The translations under genes and the position numbers were made by a program. A DNA stretch of 55,697 bases from a virus. This document shows positions 4,734 to 55,697 of this stretch, in pieces. The notes beneath the pieces are model-generated. The model made no database searches. It worked only from the letters and a program-made list of their open reading frames with translations, and was not told where the DNA came from. How positions within the stretch are numbered: the stretch's first letter is position 1; each line of letters opens with the position of its first letter. The stretch is from the IMG/VR virus record IMGVR_UViG_3300018432_000007, positions 1 through 55,697 of that record; one strand, given 5' to 3'.

Positions 4734-5021
4734 CTAGCCAGGCACTGACCCCCCATCCGGGGTCGACTCGGCAACCGACTCGGTGAACGACACGCCAGGC
4801 TGTGTGGCGACCGGGAGCCGCGCCGACGCGGGCAGCCCGGGGCGCTGAGCAGGAGCGGCGCCGATCGCCGCCGCAGCCGCTGCAGCGGACCCAGGCCGGG
4901 GCGTGGCGGGTGCGGGGCGGTGCCCGGCGCTCGGTGCCTGGTCGCCCAGGAGAGCGGCCAGCAGGGCCCGGTCACGGTCGTTCAGGGGGTGCGTCGTATC
5001 GATGGTGAGGATCACGCCCAT
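4734..5021 (-). CDS. Hypothetical protein with Ala/Pro-rich tail
   Basis: 95 residues. The first third ([20 protein letters not shown]) looks folded. The rest is low-complexity Ala/Pro/Gly, including a run of seven alanines, and is probably disordered. It follows a hairpin at 5037-5066 and ends one base before the Stealth-like gene. I do not recognise the family. Its reality is supported by the tight junction with the next gene and the GC-rich third positions. Confidence 0.6.
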
Positions 5022-5036
5022 ACGGTGACATGCCAA

Positions 5037-5066
5037 CGCCCCGCACGCTGTAGGGCGTGCGGGGCG
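5037..5066 (-). terminator. Hairpin terminator between 5087 and 5021 genes
   Basis: A perfect 12-bp stem (CGCCCCGCACGC with its complement) around a 6-base loop. There is no clear U-run, as is common for high-GC actinobacterial terminators. It may only attenuate, because the leftward terminase genes presumably use the promoter upstream of 5410. Confidence 0.65.
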
Positions 5067-5086
5067 CTGATGCGCTCGCTGGAGTG

Positions 5087-5410
5087 CTAGAACAGGATGC
5101 CCTGCGTATCGCGCTCCGTCCAGCGCTGCAGCATCGTCTCGATACGGTCGTCGCGCCCGAGCAGGCTCCCGAGCAGGATCGCCGCGGTGTCGGCCGGCGG
5201 CTCGACGACCGGGGCCCGCAGCTCGTCGTCCTCGTGGGTGTCGTCGCCAGCAGCGAGCGCCATCCAGTCGGGCGTGTCGGGATCGATGTGGGTGCGGCGT
5301 GCGTCGGCGATGCGGCAAAGGGGGCAGAGGGGGGTGCCCTCGCTGGTCGTCTTGTCGGTGCGCTCGCCGTGGGGGCAGGGGGCAAGCGGCGTGTAGGGGG
5401 TGGTACGCAT
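5087..5410 (-). CDS. Hypothetical protein with CxxC motif
   Basis: 107 residues. The N-terminus has CPHGERTDKT followed by PLCPLCRIADA, a possible zinc-binding knuckle. The centre is acidic and the C-terminal helix (LLGRDDRIETMLQRWTERD) is amphipathic. The ATG at 5410 has an excellent GGGAGGG site, which fixes the start. It is the first gene of the leftward terminase transcript. Function unknown. Confidence 0.75.
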   Translation of the reverse strand: MRTTPYTPLAPCPHGERTDKTTSEGTPLCPLCRIADARRTHIDPDTPDWMALAAGDDTHEDDELRAPVVEPPADTAAILLGSLLGRDDRIETMLQRWTERDTQGILF

Positions 5411-5497
5411 CGTTTCCCTCCCGATCTGTTCTAGCCGTCCGTGTGGTCCCATTATCGAATGGAAACGCCGTAATCGCTAGCACAAATCGAAATGCAT
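5411..5497 (-). promoter_or_regulatory. Probable promoter of the leftward terminase/head transcript
   Basis: This is an AT-richer gap between the operon that ends at 5498 and the gene that starts at 5410. On the minus strand it holds a GATAAT-like -10 element at about 5455 with AT-rich DNA upstream. No palindrome of the repeated operator type is present, so these genes are probably controlled differently from the accessory units. Confidence 0.45.
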
Positions 5498-5785
5498 CTA
5501 TGCGTCACCGGCGCCGCTGGGAAGCGTCTCCGTCCGGTGGCAGTTCCCGCAGGTCCGCTCATGCCGGAACGGCTCGGGATCACCGAAGTACCCGAACGTG
5601 ATGGTGATCCACCCGTGCCCACGGATCCGGCACTGCAGCGCACGGAACACGCGGCGCCGCTCCACCCATCCCGCGAGCTCGTCGAGCATCCTGAACACGA
5701 TCACCACGACGCACGTGGCGCAGAACACCGTGGCCACCACGGCGATCCCCACGGCCACCTGCTGGACGAACTCGGGGAACGTCAT
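5498..5785 (-). CDS. Small membrane protein with C-terminal zinc knuckle
   Basis: 95 residues. One strong transmembrane segment near residues 8-32 (VGIAVVATVFCATCVVVIVF) is followed by a basic region and a CxxC pair (TCGNCHRTETLP) near the end. It is the last gene of the overlapping operon that starts at 10469. The ATG at 5785 overlaps the upstream stop (ATGA). Function unknown. Confidence 0.7.
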   Translation of the reverse strand: MTFPEFVQQVAVGIAVVATVFCATCVVVIVFRMLDELAGWVERRRVFRALQCRIRGHGWITITFGYFGDPEPFRHERTCGNCHRTETLPSGAGDA

Positions 5786-6027
5786 GGCCGCGCCACCCCG
5801 CAGCGCGTGCACCGCACCATGGCGATAGCCGGCCACCAACCCGGCGCGCCGTCGTCGCGATCCCACACGGTCACGTACCGGTGGCGCCCGAACGCGCACA
5901 GGATGGGCCGCTGCGCGTAGGGCAGCGGTGGGCGCGGCATCGCCTCGGTCAGGCGGGCGGACATGCTGCCGTCATCGTCGGCGGAGATCTCGACGACGAG
6001 GCCGCGCCGCGAGCGCCGCCGGGTCAT
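5782..6027 (-). CDS. Hypothetical protein, C-terminal CxxC
   Basis: 81 residues. A basic N-terminus (MTRRRSRRG) is followed by an acidic DDDGS stretch and a C-terminal half with FGRHRYVTVWDRDDG and MVRCTRCGVARP. It has four-base ATGA overlaps with both neighbours, so it is translationally coupled. The HRY and RCTRCG elements recall the small zinc-ribbon-like proteins common in actinophages. No function assigned. Confidence 0.7.
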   Translation of the reverse strand: MTRRRSRRGLVVEISADDDGSMSARLTEAMPRPPLPYAQRPILCAFGRHRYVTVWDRDDGAPGWWPAIAMVRCTRCGVARP

Positions 6028-6437
6028 GAGTTCGCTCTCTGGGCCATGGCCGCGATGTCGGCGCGGCCCCAGAGGATGGCGAGGCGCCGACGTTCCGCCG
6101 GGGTGAGGAGGATGGCGCGGTCCAGTACCGCGATGATCCGCGCGGCGGGTGCGGCCCAGCTCTCGACGTTGTCCTCTGTGGAGCGTTCGAGATCTCCGAT
6201 CGCCTCGACCTGGTAGAGGTCACCTCGGCCGTACAGCGAGGCGTAATAGCGGGCATACCACCGCTCGGGCGTGAGGTAGACGCGGTCCGGGTGCCGCGGC
6301 AGTCCGTCGCGCTCGGGTGGGAGCTCGGCGCGCGCGGCACACCAGGTGCACCCGTCGTGTACCTTCCGGCCGTGGCCCGGCTCGATCAGGTCTCCTACCC
6401 GCAGGCTCGGGGCGCCACCGTGGAACAGGCGCATCAT
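6024..6437 (-). CDS. Arr-like (ADP-ribosyltransferase fold) protein, putative
   Basis: 137 residues. The layout resembles Arr/RNA 2'-phosphotransferase-type ADP-ribosyltransferase folds: FHGG with a histidine at the N-terminus, LRVGDLIEPG, VYLTPERWYARYYA with a tyrosine in the second motif, DLYQVEAIGDLE, then a Trp/Ala-rich C-terminal part. Arr enzymes use NAD to modify rifampicin, and related folds modify nucleic acids or proteins. An inserted CTWCA motif may bind zinc. The start at 6437 has a GGAGGAA site. Substrate cannot be predicted. The sequence could also be a family known only from phages. Confidence 0.5.
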   Translation of the reverse strand: MMRLFHGGAPSLRVGDLIEPGHGRKVHDGCTWCAARAELPPERDGLPRHPDRVYLTPERWYARYYASLYGRGDLYQVEAIGDLERSTEDNVESWAAPAARIIAVLDRAILLTPAERRRLAILWGRADIAAMAQRANS

Positions 6438-6586
6438 CGGTTCCTCCGCATCTTCCGTCCGAGCCACCGCACGGGCCGCTCGACCTGTCGCAGCACGGCG
6501 ACGAGCCACCGGGGCCGGGACGCTGCGTACAGGATCGCCATGGCGTACGCGAACATCAGCAGCAGGAGCACGATCCAGTCGTTCAT
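6434..6586 (-). CDS. Small membrane protein
   Basis: 50 residues with one N-terminal transmembrane helix (IVLLLLMFAYAMAILYA) and a very basic C-terminus ending KMRRNR, predicted to lie in the cytoplasm. The ATG at 6586 is preceded by GGAGAG, and four-base overlaps tie it to both neighbours. Confidence 0.65.
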   Translation of the reverse strand: MNDWIVLLLLMFAYAMAILYAASRPRWLVAVLRQVERPVRWLGRKMRRNR

Positions 6587-16979: not shown

Positions 16980-18335
16980 TCATGCGGCCATGCCGTTCCT
17001 GACCTGCTCGCGCAGCGCCAGGAGATGACGCACAGCTGCAGCAGCCTGGTGCGGAACGACGCCGTTGCCGAGCGCTTTCAGCGCATCGTTCCGCGAGATC
17101 GGCATCGTCCGGCGTGCGACCGAACCGCGGTGACCGACCGGCCGCGTGTCCCCGCCGGCTCGACGCTGCTGCAGCCGGGCACGCCACGCCTCGACGCTCT
17201 CACCTGTCACCCATCCGTCTGGGAGGCCCATCATCCACTCGACGAATCGCGGCGACAGGCGCGCAGCTCCCCCCTTCCCCGTTGCCTCGGTGGGGTCAGG
17301 TGCGGGACGCCCCAGGATCGACTCCCAGCGGGCCACGGCTGGGGCGTACTGGCGGAACCGGTGCGTCACCGCGCTGGGCAGCATCCGGTCGCCGGACGAG
17401 CCGCGCTGGTTCGGTCCCCCCTTGGTCCCGTCCGTAGCCCGGGGTGTGGGGAGCATGCGCAGCGCCTCGATCGCGAGGGACTTCCCGTGCCCGTTGCCGT
17501 TGCCGTGCGCCGACTTCATGCGTGCTGTCCAGGCGTCCCAGTCCGCGACCGCCTTGCCCGCTCCCATGTCGTTCACCGCCGGCGTCGGGAGCAGGGTCAC
17601 GGCTTCCGTACGAGCCGACCCACTGCCTCGTGCAGCGAGTCCCCGCCCGTCCCAGGCCGGTTCATCCGTGCGTAGTCCGGGCCACTGCTGCCCAGTTTCG
17701 CCTCGGGAGTCGGCAGCAGGCCAGGCAAGGACGAAGACTCGGAACCGCCCGTGAGGGGCGCCGACGTCGGAAGCGCGTACGCCCGTCCACCCAGCGTCAT
17801 ACCCGAGCTCGGCCAGGTCTCCGAGTACACGACCGAGTGCCCGCATAGGGTCTCCTCCGGCCTCTCCCATGCAGAAGTCGCAGCGTTCCAGGTGGCCAGT
17901 AGTTGCGGGGGCGTTGAGTGCTCCACGGACGTTCTCCCATACGACGAGTTGCGGGCGGATGATGTCTACGGCGTCACACATCGAGGCCCAGAGCCCCGAG
18001 CGGGTCCCTGGGCGCATCCCGGCGCGGTGACCGGCGTTGCTGAGGTCCTGGCACGGTGAGCCGCCCGAGACGACGTCTACGGGCTCGACCGCTGACCAGT
18101 CCACCTGGGTGACGTCACCGAGGTTCGGCACGCCGGGGAACCTGGTGGCGAGCACGTGGGACGGGGCGCGGTCTACCTCGGCAACCCAGGACGTCTCGAC
18201 GTCGAGCACCTGGGCCAGGCCCAGTTCCAAGCCGCCGTACCCCGCGAACAGGGCACCGGCCTTGAGGCGTCGCGGATATGGGCGAGCCCCCGTCCGGCTC
18301 TGGATGAGCCGGACGGGGGCGTGCCTGCTGATCAC
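16980..18335 (-). CDS. DNA (cytosine-5) methyltransferase
   Basis: 451 residues. Motif I is AGALFAGYGGLELGL, the catalytic PCQ loop is GGSPCQDLSNAG near residue 92, the ENV motif is VWENVRG near 135, and motif VIII-like VGAPHGRFRVFVLAWP follows. The C-terminal half holds two LLPTP/LPTPRATDG blocks and ends with the family's FVEWMMGLPDGW and NALKALGNGVVP. It methylates cytosine in an unknown site, most simply to protect phage DNA. GTG 18335 overlaps the upstream stop. A strong hairpin at 18286-18320 lies within its first codons, and a second coding-quality frame overlaps 17597-17926. Confidence 0.92.
   Translation of the reverse strand: MISRHAPVRLIQSRTGARPYPRRLKAGALFAGYGGLELGLAQVLDVETSWVAEVDRAPSHVLATRFPGVPNLGDVTQVDWSAVEPVDVVSGGSPCQDLSNAGHRAGMRPGTRSGLWASMCDAVDIIRPQLVVWENVRGALNAPATTGHLERCDFCMGEAGGDPMRALGRVLGDLAELGYDAGWTGVRASDVGAPHGRFRVFVLAWPAADSRGETGQQWPGLRTDEPAWDGRGLAARGSGSARTEAVTLLPTPAVNDMGAGKAVADWDAWTARMKSAHGNGNGHGKSLAIEALRMLPTPRATDGTKGGPNQRGSSGDRMLPSAVTHRFRQYAPAVARWESILGRPAPDPTEATGKGGAARLSPRFVEWMMGLPDGWVTGESVEAWRARLQQRRAGGDTRPVGHRGSVARRTMPISRNDALKALGNGVVPHQAAAAVRHLLALREQVRNGMAA
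17597..17926 (-). CDS. Alternative-frame ORF within the methyltransferase gene
   Basis: 109 residues in another frame of the same strand. It is not a random shadow: its third positions are mostly G/C, and it reads like the linker of phage cytosine methylases (SETWPSSGMTLGGRAYALP, APLTGGSESSS, then GLLPTPEAKLGSSGPDYARM). The LPTP block is the same kind found downstream in the main frame. It may be an overlapping gene, or the upstream part of a second protein that once joined the downstream frame near 17600. I cannot tell whether it is translated. Confidence 0.4.
   Translation of the reverse strand: MEHSTPPQLLATWNAATSAWERPEETLCGHSVVYSETWPSSGMTLGGRAYALPTSAPLTGGSESSSLPGLLPTPEAKLGSSGPDYARMNRPGTGGDSLHEAVGRLVRKP
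18286..18320 (-). terminator. Strong hairpin at the 18332/18335 gene junction
   Basis: A perfect 15-bp stem (GCCCCCGTCCGGCTC with its complement) around a 5-base loop. It lies just past the stop of 18332-19237 and therefore also in the 5' coding part of the methyltransferase. It may terminate or strongly attenuate transcription into that gene. Confidence 0.6.
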
Positions 18336-45045: not shown

Positions 45046-46725
45046 CTAGCTCGGCGAGCCCGTGGACGTGCAGGCGACCGAGCCGCAGCCGCAGCCCGAG
45101 TGCACCGGGATGTCGAAGTAGTACGCGCTGCAGCCGCGGAAGCAGGTCTTCTCGAACGTCTCCGCGAACGCCTGCCTGTCGTTTGTGCTGTTCAGCATGC
45201 TGTCGTGGATGTCGGTGCCCAGGTCGAGCGTGCCGCCATCGAGGAACACGAAGCTGTCTTCCGGGTGGATGTACACACCGGCGTCGTCCGGGACCTGGCC
45301 CGGCACGAGGATGCGGTGCTCGTTCTCTTCCTCGCCGGCGCCGAACGTCCCATCGAACGTCCATACGACGCTGGCGCCGATGTCGGAGAGCCACCCGTTG
45401 ATCGTGGCGTCCGCGAGCTGCAGGGCCTCGATGTTGTTGGCGACCCCCAAGTTCGCGATCACCTGGTTGCGCATGTAGTCGCGGATGTACGCGTCCGCGA
45501 TGACGCGGTAGCGGCGCGTCATGTTCCGCTGTGCGGAGCGGTCTGCGGCGATGACCGAGTTGATGCCCATCAGGAACGAGTTCAGGGTGTTGCACTCGTC
45601 CACCGTGCCCAGGTTCACGGACGCGGCGTGGATCTCCTCGATGGACTTCTGCTCGGCAACGCGGTCGAACTCCGCGAGGAGCAGCGCGAGCCGCGAGGCC
45701 CAGAACTCCGGGGAAAACTGTGCCTGGAAGTTACCGACGGTGATGCAGCGGACGACGGCGTCCGTTGCGCAGGTCAGCTCCTCGGGGCACGCGATCGGCG
45801 GGCACGGCTTGGTCGGGGTGTCACCGGGCGAGCCCGGTGAGCCGACGGCGCACGCCGCGATGTCCATGGCCTCGGTCCAGATCGAGACGTTGCCCGACAG
45901 GTCGCCGATGCTCGCGGCCGGGGCAAAAGTGATCTTTCCCCTGGTCGCCTGGAACTGGGGGAGAGCGTCCCGGATCGGGCGCCCGTCCTCGGAGCAGATC
46001 GGGTGCGTGTGGTCGACGTCGCCGGGACCACACATGCCACACGCTGCGGCCAGCGGGGACTCGTGGTTCTGCCCGACGCCGAACACGCCCATCATGCGCT
46101 GGTTGTTCAGATCGACGTTGAACCCGAGCTGGCGGGACGGCTCGAAGTCCCGGTGCATGCGGAACATGTGCCCGGTCTGACCCGGGTTGGTGACTGCCTT
46201 GGCGTGGGTCGAGAAAAGCTGGCCCAGGTCGTTGAAATCGCCCTGTTCCAGCTCGAACCCGGCCGCGACGCCGATGGCGCGCGAGCGGGTGCCGTTCACG
46301 GTCTTGGGCGCCGGGGTCGCGGGGGCCTTGGCGGTGGCGTGCGCCGTCAGGCGCGCGATGATGTCCGCCGACGCGGTCACCGGCTCCTCAACCTTCTCCG
46401 GCTCGGCCGGGGCAGGCGCGGGGTCCTTGGGGTCCGTGGCCGGGTCCGGCTCGGGGGCCTTGTCGTCGAACAGACCTTCGCGGAGCTTCATCAGCTCCTC
46501 ACGGTCCTTGGCCTCGGCCTTGGCGCGCTCCTCCAGCTCGCCGTCCAGCTTCTTGACCCCGGCGTGCAGGTCGCGGGCCAGATCCAGGTCGGGCTTGTCG
46601 GCCGTGGTCGCGGCGTCGAGCGCCGTCTTGAGCTCGTCGCGGGCTGCCTGCAGTTCGTCGGTCAGCGGCGGGGTGTCCCCGTCCAGCTGCGCGAGGATCG
46701 CAAGTGCATCGATCTTCTTCGCCAT
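45046..46725 (-). CDS. Major capsid protein with N-terminal scaffold domain
   Basis: 559 residues. The N-terminal 150 residues are a charged coiled coil (KTALDAATTADKPDLDLARD, ERAKAEAKDREELMKL) plus an acidic Pro/Ala linker, the delta or scaffold part removed during maturation. The capsid domain follows, with ENHR-type segments (MLVF-like NHESPLAAACGMCGPGDVDH, MTRRYRVIADAYIRDYM) and ends with Cys-rich SGCGCGSVACTS. A SPGSPGDTP insertion sits in the middle. ATG 46725 has an AGGA site. It heads the leftward head-tail operon. Confidence 0.85.
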   Translation of the reverse strand: MAKKIDALAILAQLDGDTPPLTDELQAARDELKTALDAATTADKPDLDLARDLHAGVKKLDGELEERAKAEAKDREELMKLREGLFDDKAPEPDPATDPKDPAPAPAEPEKVEEPVTASADIIARLTAHATAKAPATPAPKTVNGTRSRAIGVAAGFELEQGDFNDLGQLFSTHAKAVTNPGQTGHMFRMHRDFEPSRQLGFNVDLNNQRMMGVFGVGQNHESPLAAACGMCGPGDVDHTHPICSEDGRPIRDALPQFQATRGKITFAPAASIGDLSGNVSIWTEAMDIAACAVGSPGSPGDTPTKPCPPIACPEELTCATDAVVRCITVGNFQAQFSPEFWASRLALLLAEFDRVAEQKSIEEIHAASVNLGTVDECNTLNSFLMGINSVIAADRSAQRNMTRRYRVIADAYIRDYMRNQVIANLGVANNIEALQLADATINGWLSDIGASVVWTFDGTFGAGEEENEHRILVPGQVPDDAGVYIHPEDSFVFLDGGTLDLGTDIHDSMLNSTNDRQAFAETFEKTCFRGCSAYYFDIPVHSGCGCGSVACTSTGSPS

Positions 46726-46861
46726 GTCCAGTGTCCTATCTGTCCGGACTCGTATGGGTGGAGACCGTGCCTTACAGACATGGTGAATGGTCGTAGCATA
46801 ACTACGCCCGTTCGCGAACTGCGCGGTGCGGCGCGCCGCGACTCCGGAGAGGCCCCACCGA
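46726..46861. promoter_or_regulatory. Divergent promoter region, capsid versus methyltransferase genes
   Basis: 136 bases between divergently transcribed genes. AT-richer stretches (TAGCATAACTACG) could hold a -10 for either direction. No copy of the repeated palindrome is seen. Confidence 0.4.
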
Positions 46862-47383
46862 ATGCCGTTCTCAGCCCGTGAAAACCGCACCTGGGCGCGT
46901 GCGCAGGTGGTCGCCGCCAAGCCGCGCCTGATCCTCGACATCGGCCCCGGAGAGGGCGCCTACGCGATGCTGCTGCGGCCGGTGCTGCCGACCACGGCGT
47001 TCTACGGGATCGAGGCGTGGGAGCCGTACGTGGACAAGTACGCGCTGCTCACGAAGTACGACGCGATCACCGTCGCGGACGTGCGGAACTTCTGGTTCCC
47101 GGCCGGTGACTACACGGTGATCATGGGCGACGTCCTCGAACACATGCCCGATCAGGACGGGCGGGATCTCGTGGCCACGATCAAGGAACGCGCCAAGCAC
47201 CTTCTGCTGAGCGTCCCGATCCGGCACAAAGAGCAGGGGGCGACGTTCGGCAATCCGTACGAGCGGCACGTGCGCCACTGGCACTACGACGAGCTGCAGG
47301 AACTGATGGGGCCGTGCCCGCAGGTGAAGGGGCACACCCTGGCCCGCTTCTGGTGGACCCGACCGACCGAGCGACGGGAGTAA
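46862..47383 (+). CDS. Class I SAM-dependent methyltransferase
   Basis: 173 residues. LILDIGPGEGAYAMLL is motif I, FYGIEAWEPYV motif II, and YTVIMGDVLEHMPDQDG the motif IV region, followed by HLLLSVPIRHKEQG. The whole is a compact Rossmann methyltransferase of the type often found with glycan-modifying genes. The substrate could be a sugar, small molecule or protein. It lies on the plus strand, opposite to its capsid neighbours. GGAGAGG precedes ATG 46862. Confidence 0.82.
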   Translation: MPFSARENRTWARAQVVAAKPRLILDIGPGEGAYAMLLRPVLPTTAFYGIEAWEPYVDKYALLTKYDAITVADVRNFWFPAGDYTVIMGDVLEHMPDQDGRDLVATIKERAKHLLLSVPIRHKEQGATFGNPYERHVRHWHYDELQELMGPCPQVKGHTLARFWWTRPTERRE

Positions 47384-50462: not shown

Positions 50463-51422
50463 TCAGATCTTGCCCGCGTTGAGCCGCTTCTGGAACTGGC
50501 GCACCGTGGCGGACGGGTTCCAGATCTCGCCGTCCCGCACGTCCATGCGGAGATCTGCCTGCAGGGCCGTGAAGTACATCGGGCCCACGAGCCCGTCGAG
50601 CTTGCCCAGGTAGCGGCCTCGGCTCTGGAGAATCACCTGGTGTTCGAGGATCATGCGCGAGCCGCGAGCGTCCTCGGGGTCTACCCACTGCCAGCCGCGC
50701 GTGAGCCCGGGGTTGTCGGCGACGTGAGTCCGGGACTGGGACGACACGATGCCGTCCACCGTGGTGCCGAGCTCGTGCTGTGCCTTGCGGGTCGTGTCCG
50801 ATCCCCACCGGCCGTCCACGTCGATCTGGTCCGGGACGTGGCCCGACGTCGGCGGGCGTACGGGGTTGTCGACGTAGATGGGCCCGTCAGCGTGATAGAC
50901 GCCGCGGTTGAGCTGGCCCAGCAGCGACTCCGCGAACCGACCAGGGCACGCGGTCTGCGCGCCGGGTGCGTCCTGGTGGCCACCGGCGACCTGCGGGTTG
51001 CGCCACCACTTCTGAGCCACGCCGTGGTGCAGCAGCCAGTCCGTGGCTTCCAGCATCGGGCGCGGCGGTTTGTTGATGTCGTAGTTCCCCACCCACACGA
51101 TGTTCGCGGTCGGGGTGTTGTACTTCGCGATCGCGGCGCCGACGCGGTCCACGCTCACGCCCTCGAAGATCAACCCGGCTGGCGTGATCGGGAACTGGTA
51201 GCTGATGCCGTGCCGGAACCGCTCCTGGCCGATCGCTTCCAGCTTGCGCACTGCGGCGAAATCGTCGTCGAACGGTGGGAGGAGGTTCGGCGCGATCGTG
51301 ACGCTGTGGTGCACGTACACGAGCAGGTTCCCGACCGCCCGGGGCCCGAACCCGTCGGGGAACCGGGCGCCCCACTGCGGGCGCTGGATGACTCTCTGCT
51401 CTTGGATGACGCTCTGGGCCAT
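50463..51422 (-). CDS. Endolysin: N-acetylmuramoyl-L-alanine amidase with peptidoglycan-binding domain
   Basis: 319 residues. The amidase_2/PGRP-like domain includes VYVHHSVT near residue 35 (zinc histidine), VGNYDIN, a GGHQDAPG near 149 and TACPGRF near 157. The C-terminal 120 residues (DVDGRWGSDTTRKAQHELGT, and GKLDGLVGPMYFTALQADLR) form a peptidoglycan-binding domain. It cleaves the link between muramic acid and the stem peptide. ATG 51422 has a GGAGGAA site. No signal peptide, so it needs the holin. Confidence 0.9.
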   Translation of the reverse strand: MAQSVIQEQRVIQRPQWGARFPDGFGPRAVGNLLVYVHHSVTIAPNLLPPFDDDFAAVRKLEAIGQERFRHGISYQFPITPAGLIFEGVSVDRVGAAIAKYNTPTANIVWVGNYDINKPPRPMLEATDWLLHHGVAQKWWRNPQVAGGHQDAPGAQTACPGRFAESLLGQLNRGVYHADGPIYVDNPVRPPTSGHVPDQIDVDGRWGSDTTRKAQHELGTTVDGIVSSQSRTHVADNPGLTRGWQWVDPEDARGSRMILEHQVILQSRGRYLGKLDGLVGPMYFTALQADLRMDVRDGEIWNPSATVRQFQKRLNAGKI

Positions 51423-51460
51423 GGGTTCCTCCGTGGTGTGGTGGTGGTCTGATCCTGCCG

Positions 51461-51655
51461 TCAGATCGAGGGCAGTCGCCTGCCGGCCAGGGTCCGGCCG
51501 GGGACGGGGAACATGCGCTGCCCACGGCACCCTGGGCAGCGGATCGGGATCGGGTGCGACATCATCCGCGTGGGGTTGCGGCGGAACGCGACCCCGGCAC
51601 GGAGCGTGATCAGGATCCGGCCACCCTCGCACCTCTGGCAGAGGGAGCTATGCAT
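51461..51655 (-). CDS. Zinc-ribbon-like protein
   Basis: 64 residues. SLCQRCEGGRILITLR and IRCPGCRGQRMFPVPGR form two CxxC pairs. The basic sequence between them suggests nucleic-acid contact. It overlaps the upstream gene by eight bases and is next to the endolysin gene. Confidence 0.64.
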   Translation of the reverse strand: MHSSLCQRCEGGRILITLRAGVAFRRNPTRMMSHPIPIRCPGCRGQRMFPVPGRTLAGRRLPSI

Positions 51656-51979: not shown

Positions 51980-52915
51980 CTATCCCCGAGCGGCCAGAGC
52001 CTCGACCTGGGTCACGAACGCGGCCTGGTCATCGCGGTACCGGATGGCGTTCCCGCGCTGCGCGACGTCGCTCGATGCGACGTGCCAGGCGTCCTCGTCG
52101 GTCATGAGCCGGCTGACGGTCTTCACCCACGCGCGCAGGTCGTTGCGGTCCAGGTAGATGCCGTGACCGTCCATCGCCTCGCGGATGCCGGGGTCTGGGG
52201 AGGCGACGAGCGGGATCCCCGAGATCGAGCCCTCGACACCGACACGGCCGTACGTCTCGGACTTGGACGGGAACACCTGCACGCGGGTGCGCGAGTAGAA
52301 GTCGCGCGGGTCCATGAAGTCGACGAGCTCGACGTTGTTGATCCCCCGGAACGCGGAGACGCCGCTGCCGCGCCCGTCCTTCACGACCAGGAACCGGTGA
52401 TTGGTCATCGCGCGGGCCATGCTCGCGACGAGCAGCCCGCCTTTCCACGGCGACGACAGGGACAGGCCGATCTTGGCGCCCGGCGTCGTGCGATACCTGT
52501 CCGGGTCGATCGGTGGTGGGGTGCTGAACAGCAGTTTGCGGGGCAGTGCGAGCGTGTGGGCGCGCATCGCCGCATACGACGGAAACCACACCTTCTCAGC
52601 GAACCGCAGCCCCGGGTCCTGGGTTTGGTAGGAGTGCTGGCACATCAGCTTCCGGCCGGGCATCCGCTTGATGGTCTCCAGCGCGTCCGTAGGCAGCCCC
52701 GAGTTGTACACGATGACGTCGTAGCGGGCGCTGCTGTCCAGGGCCCGGATACGCCGCACGTTGATCGGCAGGTCACCGGTGTACGGCGACAGGACAGCGG
52801 TCACGCACACGTCAACGGCGTGGCCGGCGGCAGCGAGCGGAGTCAGGAGCTCCACCATCGTCGTTGCCCGGCCACGCCCGTACCCGAACCCCTGGACTAC
52901 CCCGAGGATCCTCAC
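51980..52915 (-). CDS. Glycosyltransferase family 4-like (GT-B)
   Basis: 311 residues. N-terminal GFGYGRGRATTMVELLTPLA matches the glycine-rich loop of GT4 enzymes. The C-terminal Rossmann half has LSLSSPWKGGLL, VVKDGRG, NVELVDFMDPRDFYS and FPSKSETYGRVGVEGSISGI, the EX7E-type donor-site motif. It transfers a sugar from a nucleotide donor, probably in the cytoplasm. GTG 52915 overlaps the Acb2-like stop. Inserted between capsid protease and lysis genes, it may decorate a virion protein or wall polymer. Confidence 0.85.
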   Translation of the reverse strand: MRILGVVQGFGYGRGRATTMVELLTPLAAAGHAVDVCVTAVLSPYTGDLPINVRRIRALDSSARYDVIVYNSGLPTDALETIKRMPGRKLMCQHSYQTQDPGLRFAEKVWFPSYAAMRAHTLALPRKLLFSTPPPIDPDRYRTTPGAKIGLSLSSPWKGGLLVASMARAMTNHRFLVVKDGRGSGVSAFRGINNVELVDFMDPRDFYSRTRVQVFPSKSETYGRVGVEGSISGIPLVASPDPGIREAMDGHGIYLDRNDLRAWVKTVSRLMTDEDAWHVASSDVAQRGNAIRYRDDQAAFVTQVEALAARG

Positions 52916-53262
52916 GGCTGCGTGTGCCGCACCTGGGCTGCAACGTCCATCGCGAGCAGCTTGATCGGGCCCGGCTCGGCGTAGTCCGTGGTCACGAGCG
53001 GCGCCGTCTCTGCGGTGGCCCAGTGGAACCACATGGACGCCTGCTGCAGCTGCGTGAACGCCGTGGCCTTGCCCCGACCAGCGGGCACCAGGTGGTCCAG
53101 GTGCTCGGCGATCTCGATGAACAGTGCGCGGATCTCCTCGTGGATGGGGGCTGTGGCGTTCGCCCCCTCGATGGTCGCGGCGTGGTACCCGAACCGGTGC
53201 AGGATCTCGTCCCGGCCGATGCTCGCGTTGGTCTCGGGGATCTCGTTGGTGGTGTCGCTCAT
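52912..53262 (-). CDS. Acb2/Tad1-like hairpin protein, candidate anti-CBASS/anti-Thoeris sponge
   Basis: 116 residues. The core ILHRFGYHAATIEGANATAP, HEEIRALFIEIAEHLDHLVP, AGRGKATAFTQLQQASMWFH closely follows the pattern of the Acb2/Tad1 hairpin domain (RFxYH, HEExR, LxxLxPxGRxKxxAxTxLxxAxxW). Such proteins bind cyclic di- and trinucleotide or other signals made by CBASS or Thoeris systems and so block immune signalling. The C-terminal 40 residues (TDYAEPGPIKLLAMDVAAQV) extend it. It sits between the protease and GT4 genes. ATG 53262 has an AGGAG site. Confidence 0.75.
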   Translation of the reverse strand: MSDTTNEIPETNASIGRDEILHRFGYHAATIEGANATAPIHEEIRALFIEIAEHLDHLVPAGRGKATAFTQLQQASMWFHWATAETAPLVTTDYAEPGPIKLLAMDVAAQVRHTQP

Positions 53263-53273
53263 GGTGCTCCTGT

Positions 53274-54029
53274 TCAGGCGGTGATGACGGGCCATGCGGG
53301 ATCGACGACCAGGTGAGCGGCCGTCAGGGTGTTGCGCCCACCGGTCTCCATGGTGGGCCACTGCTCGATCGAGACCGGCGCTCCGGCGACCTGGCCCAGC
53401 ACGGCATCCGGCAGGCCAGGCACGACGGATCCGGCCACGGCGAGGCGTCCGCGCGAGTCCTCCCAGGCGCGGACCCGGGCGACGACCGTGGACGTGTTCT
53501 CGTGGTACGCGCGGGCCACTTCCAGGGGCTGCCGGACATCGGCGTGCAGTGCTGCGGCGGTGAGCGCGCCGGTGCGGATCACGCGGCCGTCGTCGAGCGT
53601 CGTGGTCCACGTGTGGAAGTTGCGCAGCTTGGGGTCTGGGTCGCGCTGGTACCGCTTGCATGCGGACATGTCGCCGTTCTTGTAGCAGACGGTGCCCGCG
53701 ATGTGCCCGTAGATCCGGCCGTCCGGCTCGAACGTGAGCGGGGTCTGGTCCTTCCCATCCGCTTCCCACGTATCGAAGTGCATCGATGGGAAGACGATGG
53801 CGTTGCGGACCATCGTCGCCGCTGCGGTGATCGGGCCGTCCACCACGGCCGGGTCGGGCGACTGCAGAACCTCGCCCTGCTCCTCGCACTCGGTGCAGGG
53901 CTCCTCCACGACGGGCTCGACGGTGACCGCTCCCCCAGCGCCACCAGCCGCTGCGGTCACGCTCGCGCGCTGCTGCCGGACACGCTCGATCATGCGTGCG
54001 GCCTTGACCCTGTCCAGGGCGTCATTCAT
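53274..54029 (-). CDS. Capsid maturation protease
   Basis: 251 residues. The N-terminal 75 residues are disordered and have CTECEEQGE. The protease region reads PLTFEPDGRIYGHIAGTVCY, LRNFHTWTTTLDD, ALHADVRQPLEVARAYHENT and AWEDSRGRLAVAGSVVPG, as in actinophage prohead proteases, with histidines in the expected AxHA and YHE positions. It cleaves scaffold and capsid precursors. It follows the portal by 10 bases. Confidence 0.8.
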   Translation of the reverse strand: MNDALDRVKAARMIERVRQQRASVTAAAGGAGGAVTVEPVVEEPCTECEEQGEVLQSPDPAVVDGPITAAATMVRNAIVFPSMHFDTWEADGKDQTPLTFEPDGRIYGHIAGTVCYKNGDMSACKRYQRDPDPKLRNFHTWTTTLDDGRVIRTGALTAAALHADVRQPLEVARAYHENTSTVVARVRAWEDSRGRLAVAGSVVPGLPDAVLGQVAGAPVSIEQWPTMETGGRNTLTAAHLVVDPAWPVITA

Positions 54030-54039
54030 GGGAGCCTCC

Positions 54040-55697
54040 TCAGCTCGCGGCCGGCTGCAGCTGCGACCAGCCCGTTCGTACGGTGGTCATCGCCGCGGGC
54101 GCCGCGATGCACTGACACCCGGCATGGTCACCGGGGAACGCCTCGTACCCGCCGGCGAACACGCTGACCCCGTTGAACAGCGCGTCCTTGAGCGAGAGGT
54201 GCACGGGGTGCGGGTCAGGACCCTGGTACAGGTGCAGCCACCGGTGTGACCCGGGCCCCGACGGGGGTGCTAGGCCGTGGTCCCGACGGATGATCGCCAG
54301 GGTGGCCGCTGCCAGCGCGATCCCGCTGGCGGCTTGCCGAAAATCCCCCGGTTCACCACCTCCCGCGATCGTCGCGACTTCTCGTGCGGCCTCCCACGCC
54401 TCGGCTATCCCGGTGCCACCTTCCTGCTGCACGGCGACCGTGGCAGCGACCGCGGACACGAACGCGGCCTGCGCGGCTGTCATGCCCTCCTGCTCGGGCT
54501 CGGGGGGCACCTCGATGCCCATGGCCCGCAGGCGACCCTGCGCGCGGGCGATGATCCGGGCGACCTTGGCGATCGCGGCCTCGGCCACCTGCTGGATGGT
54601 GGCGTCCCGGTTCGGTACCTCGCCGGTGTACGCCCGGGCGAGTTCCGCGTTGGGCACGTCCGGGAGATCGATGTTCCGGCCCTGCGCGATACTGCGGATC
54701 TTCGCGCCCAGCTTCTCCAGCGCCCGCTCCGCGATGTCCAGGATCAGGTCCTCAAGCGACGTGTACGCCTGCTCGTCGATCTCGGCCAGGCGCGTCCCGT
54801 CGATCGGCGGTGTGGTCGCCGCAGTGGTCGGCGCGCCGGTGATCTGCCGGGTCTCTTCCTGCTCGACCGGCTCGTTCCCGGTCGGCGTGTCGGGGTCCTC
54901 CTCGGGCGCCGGGTCCTCCTGTGCGATCCCGTCGCCTACGGCGTCGTCGGGGGCACCGAGCTGTTCGGCCACCCACCACAGCTTGACGATCCCGAGTTCG
55001 CCCGCGTGGATCACGTCGGCCAGTGGCGGGCGTCGTCGCAGCAGCGGCGCCGGGTCCGGGACGACGTCCAGGCGCCCCTCTGGGACGCTCGCGGCGATCG
55101 TCAGCCCCTCAGCGAACGCCTGCCCCACCGGAGCGGCCAGTGGCTCCACGTGACCCAACCAGTTGTCCTCAAGCGACGCGTACGCGCTCCACTGGTTCGA
55201 GTCCTCAAGGCCCAGCAGGATCGAGGGCGCGATGTCGAGCCCGATCGCGAGCTGGCGCACCAGGCGCTCGATGCGGTCGTGCAGCTTCTCGTCGATGGGG
55301 CCGGTCAGGTCGAGAACGCGCCACTTCTCGATGAACTCGGCGGGGAACCCCACGATGTTCGGGACTGCGACCGCCTCGGCCTTTTCGTCCGAGAGCGGCG
55401 CGGTGACCACCTTGGCCAGGTCGCTCTCGAACTTCTTGGGGTTCGGCCCGGCCCCCTCCTTGGGGTACAGGACCATCATGGTCTGCGCGGTCCGGGAGCG
55501 GGCCGTGGCGCGCGCCTGCGCACGCGTCAGGATCAGTTCTGTGGCGATGTCCCGGATAGCAGCCACCGGCGAGTCGGCGCGGTTCGGGATGGCCGGGTCT
55601 TCCAGGATCACCTCGACCAGGACGTCAGCCTGCTCGGCGAGCTTCTTCTGCTCGCTGGTGAGCGGCGAGTTGAAGATCCGCCACTCGGTGCCGCCGC
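54040..55697 (-). CDS. Portal protein, C-terminal part (with MuF-like end)
   Basis: The continuation of the gene at 1-454; this piece holds about residues 111-662. After the portal core (KVVTAPLSDEKAEAVAVPNI, LAIGLDIAPSILLGLEDSNQ) comes an Ala/Glu-rich helical region. The last 60 residues (GSHRWLHLYQGPDPHPVHLS and FAGGYEAFPGDHAGCQCIA) resemble the end of MuF-type minor capsid proteins. The total of 662 residues is longer than normal portals (about 450-550), consistent with a portal-MuF fusion. It runs off the right edge and re-enters at 1. Confidence 0.85.
   Translation of the reverse strand, partial: GGTEWRIFNSPLTSEQKKLAEQADVLVEVILEDPAIPNRADSPVAAIRDIATELILTRAQARATARSRTAQTMMVLYPKEGAGPNPKKFESDLAKVVTAPLSDEKAEAVAVPNIVGFPAEFIEKWRVLDLTGPIDEKLHDRIERLVRQLAIGLDIAPSILLGLEDSNQWSAYASLEDNWLGHVEPLAAPVGQAFAEGLTIAASVPEGRLDVVPDPAPLLRRRPPLADVIHAGELGIVKLWWVAEQLGAPDDAVGDGIAQEDPAPEEDPDTPTGNEPVEQEETRQITGAPTTAATTPPIDGTRLAEIDEQAYTSLEDLILDIAERALEKLGAKIRSIAQGRNIDLPDVPNAELARAYTGEVPNRDATIQQVAEAAIAKVARIIARAQGRLRAMGIEVPPEPEQEGMTAAQAAFVSAVAATVAVQQEGGTGIAEAWEAAREVATIAGGGEPGDFRQAASGIALAAATLAIIRRDHGLAPPSGPGSHRWLHLYQGPDPHPVHLSLKDALFNGVSVFAGGYEAFPGDHAGCQCIAAPAAMTTVRTGWSQLQPAAS
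55575..55697. repeat. Direct terminal repeat, right copy
   Basis: Identical to 1-123. Its presence shows the sequence closes into a circle of about 55,574 bp. Confidence 0.9.

Follow-up and report, generated by a model that had tools for sequence, protein, structure and literature searches.

The locus considered here raises the question of whether a small gene lying between a capsid protease gene and a glycosyltransferase gene encodes a sponge for the cyclic nucleotides of bacterial immunity, as a preliminary description had proposed, or a protein belonging to the phage head. The gene is carried by a 55,697-nt stretch of IMG/VR record IMGVR_UViG_3300018432_000007 (positions 1 to 55,697), hereafter the window, the relevant features of which are collected in Table 1. 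A search at the DNA level with 15.7 kb of the window matched no named phage.

Translation of the minus strand over the gene gives MSDTTNEIPETNASIGRDEILHRFGYHAATIEGANATAPIHEEIRALFIEIAEHLDHLVPAGRGKATAFTQLQQASMWFHWATAETAPLVTTDYAEPGPIKLLAMDVAAQVRHTQP, a 116-amino acid protein containing the motifs RFGYH, HEEIR and LVPAGRGKATAFTQL. The coordinates, strand and motifs given in the preliminary description were right, and the reading frame is a real one, with an ATG start and an AGGAG ribosome-binding site. A longer in-frame ORF reaching 53889 is mechanical only and overlaps the protease gene, which lies in another frame. The two neighbours, capsid protease and glycosyltransferase, are likewise as first described. 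Eleven bases separate the acb2-like gene from the stop codon of the upstream protease gene, and the likely GTG start of the glycosyltransferase shares the bases GTGA with the acb2-like stop codon, an arrangement which suggests co-transcription and coupled translation.

Table 1. Features of the acb2-like locus in the window.
Feature	Position	Strand	Details
Portal protein, open at window end	54040..55695	-	PHROG 776 portal, 1.8e-25, N-terminal part
Capsid maturation protease	53274..54029	-	PHROG 18402 head maturation protease, 3.8e-9; directly upstream of acb2-like gene
Ribosome-binding site AGGAG	53267..53271	-	Sequence; precedes acb2-like ATG
acb2-like gene	52912..53262	-	116 aa; ATG at 53262, TGA at 52914-52912
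Conserved core, residues 13-91	52990..53226	-	AlphaFold2, core-alone mean pLDDT 91.7
Y26 codon	53185..53187	-	Aligns with T4 Acb2 Y8 and PaP2 p26 Y11 (MAFFT); putative dinucleotide base stacking
R63 codon	53074..53076	-	Aligns with PaP2 p26 R67 (MAFFT)
C-terminal extension, residues 89-116 (28 aa)	52915..52998	-	Predicted disordered, sequence not conserved
GT4 glycosyltransferase	51980..52915	-	Pfam Glyco_trans_1_4, 5e-11; likely GTG start
Endolysin (amidase), downstream	50463..51632	-	PHROG 1493, 2.5e-14
Major capsid protein, further downstream	45046..46941	-	PHROG 777, 6.6e-37

The identity of the protein was addressed by profile searches. Residues 25-79 match the Pfam family PF24729, Acb2_Tad1_hairpin, with an E-value of 1.7e-10 and 41.4 bits (curated cut-off, 27 bits), and PHROG 1454 matches the protein with an E-value of 1e-17. 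Relatives are encoded in 39 annotated actinophage records, from phages of Streptomyces, Mycobacterium, Microbacterium and Corynebacterium. They are also encoded in 166 IMG/VR stretches. Each of the 62 representatives that were aligned matches Acb2_Tad1_hairpin and no other Pfam family. When the profile of the relatives was compared with PDB sequences, the significant match was Acb2 homolog 43 (9ptq, 3.2e-8), and the entries below significance were only Tad1 and T4 Vs.4. An HH comparison with an alignment of T4-type Acb2 proteins gave a probability of 94.8 and an E-value of 5e-8 over 31 columns, corresponding to the second helix. Profiles were required, as single-sequence searches of the PDB and of viral contigs returned nothing useful; PADLOC gave no match, and a scan of bacterial genomes yielded only two matches, short and distant. 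The gene is under purifying selection (pN/pS 0.21-0.79). Similar actinophage genes have already been published as putative Acb2 in Statler (PMC13348362) and in Xandras and BigBubba (PMC11953737), and the window gene is most suitably placed in that family as a new, otherwise unremarkable member whose product is expected from homology to bind ligands.

An AlphaFold2 model of the whole protein, built with 62 sequences, contains a short N-terminal helix (residues 16-24) and two long helices (38-58 and 63-84) forming an antiparallel hairpin; block means of pLDDT in the helices are mostly 88-98, and above 90 in the hairpin. The core was also modelled alone. Published Acb2 protomers consist of a short N-terminal helix and two long antiparallel helices (PMC12043709, PMC10419184), and the modelling proposed in the preliminary description thus yielded this same fold with high confidence. 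Fold searches against the PDB did not discriminate, because a hairpin of two helices alone has little to distinguish it: Foldseek found no significant match for the whole or the core model, and VIA-align placed T4 Vs.4 at Z 5.3, tied with unrelated helical hairpins, with CbTad1 likewise among unrelated hairpins. In a comparison with predicted viral structures, Acb2/Tad1 hairpin proteins supplied the best match and most of the named matches of high probability. Membership in the Acb2-type hairpin family is supported by the Pfam match, by PDB profile hits exclusively to Acb2, Tad1 or Vs.4, by the fold of the modelled protomer and by the aligned ligand residues described below.

The preliminary description had also evoked Thoeris. 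A sponge of the Tad1 type would bind glycocyclic ADP-ribose and block this system, and the window protein has in common with CbTad1 (PDB 7uav, 8kbe) the Pfam hairpin domain and a weak sequence match, with a shared motif, in the second helix. CbTad1, unlike the window protein, carries an N-terminal beta-sheet, which in Tad1 has four strands (PMC12043709). Neither the whole nor the core model contains an antiparallel sheet of this type, or indeed any strand, and only about 15 residues precede the first helix. Thoeris inhibition is unsupported for want of this sheet, and we regard a Tad1-type activity as highly improbable.

The residues expected to contact ligands were compared with those of known Acb2 proteins in a joint MAFFT alignment of the window protein, T4 Vs.4 with its relatives, and p26 of a Pseudomonas phage. 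In p26, we take Y11 to stack on the dinucleotide base through its aromatic ring, K26 to supply the basic side chain in the dinucleotide pocket and R67 to be the arginine of the cyclic-trinucleotide site; the p26 chain does have Y, K and R at positions 11, 26 and 67. The column of window residue Y26 is occupied by F or Y in 58 of the 62 relatives, and that of R63 by Arg in 59. At the position of K26, MAFFT places A38, which leaves no clear counterpart; the invariant residues R45 and H41 are close by, and an equivalence of R45 with K26 that had been read by eye was not upheld by the alignment. Window residues T70 and A84 align with T68 and F82 of T4 Acb2, respectively. In the T4 protein, Y8A disrupts dinucleotide binding and F82 stacks on the ligand (PMC12657218), while T68M lowers affinity (PMC12657230). 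With A84 in place of F82 and nothing that clearly corresponds to K26, the pocket differs from those of T4 Acb2 and p26. In one relative (L095, 2480-2734), GSTK replaces GRGK and Ser stands at the R63 position, which hints at variable, possibly lost, trinucleotide binding.

Comparison with individual proteins completes this picture. The closest actinophage proteins, from Bing and Rima (Streptomyces), NoodlelyBoi (Microbacterium) and PSonyx (Corynebacterium), have cores about 48-57% identical to that of the window protein and share its RFGFHKATIEG and GRxKS motifs as well as a late-gene neighbourhood, but they are about 80 aa long, lack the C-terminal extension and are mostly annotated as hypothetical. 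Acb2 homolog 43, the best PDB sequence match, has the motif GREKS...TKLEEA in common with the window protein and measures 76 aa versus 116 aa. T4 Acb2 (Vs.4, PDB 7uq2) shares the GY and TxLxxASMW motifs and a two-helix hairpin aligned by VIA-align, but the loop/helix region joining its hairpin arms is longer and it has no GRxK motif, and its gene, unlike that of the window, sits in the vs region between tk and denV. The similarity to p26 (PDB 8h2j/8ixz) resides in the residues corresponding to Y26 and R63, whereas overall identity is low.

The C-terminal region had been described as a 40-residue extension, unusual for canonical proteins of roughly 95 residues. The first figure took in the second hairpin helix, and just 28 residues lie beyond the shared core; as to the second, the closest relatives are shorter than stated. 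From residue 91 onward pLDDT falls to 52-59, a low confidence that covers residues 91-116. The number of residues after P88 has a median of 4 among the 62 relatives and reaches at least 20 in only six. The window protein (28) and one relative (L013; 26) are alike in extension length and not in sequence, and the extension is absent from three others (L014, L015 and L095). This variable extension is predicted to be disordered and offers no basis for proposing a new function. Long C-terminal regions occur in two further hairpin proteins (L076, 3797-4630, 277 aa in all; L073, 4004-4603, 199 aa in all). In the mycobacteriophages Nergal (L007, 522-1079) and MalagasyRose (L009, 922-1509), the hairpin lies inside a protein of 185-195 aa that has similar N- and C-terminal extensions (CPC...GGGLVIVHNAADGRP), a possible two-part sponge.

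The genes around acb2 belong to the head and lysis functions. The product of the protease gene also matches PHROG 859 portal (6e-19) and shares 31% identity over 158 aa with the protein annotated as capsid maturation protease in NoodlelyBoi, and the portal protein is probably fused to a MuF-type domain. Elsewhere in the window, a DNA methyltransferase gene (16980-18335; PHROG 363, 1.5e-63) is a possible second anti-defence gene of the same phage. A position among late genes had been considered unusual for a defence inhibitor; it proves to be common among the actinophage relatives, which neighbour holin, endolysin, terminase or capsid protease genes, and therefore carries no weight either way on defence inhibition. 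A survey of 95 ORFs flanking the relatives gave 17 matches to holin families, at least nine to terminase and several to endolysin families. The hairpin gene immediately follows the holin gene in Bing, PSonyx and Rima and is found just upstream of the terminase gene in MalagasyRose and Nergal; some other relatives lie near replication genes, with thymidylate synthase or DnaQ genes as neighbours.

This distribution bears on the idea that the hairpin fold was kept while the protein has a structural or morphogenetic role in the head. Both in the window and in NoodlelyBoi, the gene is located between those for the capsid protease and the major capsid protein, as such a role would predict, but the varied neighbours of the relatives speak against it. 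The gene order portal, protease, acb2, glycosyltransferase, small ORF and endolysin is common to the window and to L014, L015/L094 and L095, and is the same in L013/L096 as far as the fetched stretch extends. In L097, a related 56.8-kb contig whose portal, protease, glycosyltransferase and capsid proteins are 59-69% identical to those of the window, the glycosyltransferase gene directly follows the capsid protease gene (5001-6541), forming a natural empty site without acb2. No hairpin gene was found elsewhere in the L097 record, and the lysis genes lying between the glycosyltransferase and capsid genes of the window are also missing at the empty site. The presence of acb2 in one phage and its absence from the other could stem from gain of the gene or from its loss. 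The acb2-like gene is thus accessory cargo in this lineage and not a head component, a role to which we give very little credence.

The recurrent lysis-gene neighbourhood, together with the EGxNAT loop and the invariant residues F24, H27, H41 and R45 of the actinophage subfamily, could also be read as signs of a hairpin sponge retuned to housekeeping c-di-AMP or c-di-GMP and acting on the late lytic phase instead of immunity; accessory genes commonly insert in late cassettes, and we hold this to be very unlikely. Somewhat less remote, although still improbable, is that the subfamily consists of late-acting sponges with a ligand range of their own, perhaps directed at signals outside known CBASS.

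The encoded protein is very probably an Acb2-type sponge from an actinobacteriophage, and we infer its oligomeric state, ligands and effect on CBASS, and the co-transcription and timing of its gene, as follows. Carried as accessory cargo, the gene would be transcribed together with the head/lysis operon. Its product, a helical hairpin, would form a hexamer, as other Acb2 proteins do, in which cyclic dinucleotides would sit between the protomers and Y26 would stack on a base, while R63 at the three-fold site may bind cyclic trinucleotides. With the signals sequestered, CBASS-type effectors would stay inactive.

Acb2 proteins bear on how phages blunt nucleotide-based immunity and on what sets off guard systems such as Panoptes. 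Their role in mycobacteriophages has been stated to be untested (PMC11953737), and pairs of phages that differ in whether they carry the gene at one and the same position would offer convenient material for testing the role of Acb2 in actinobacteria.
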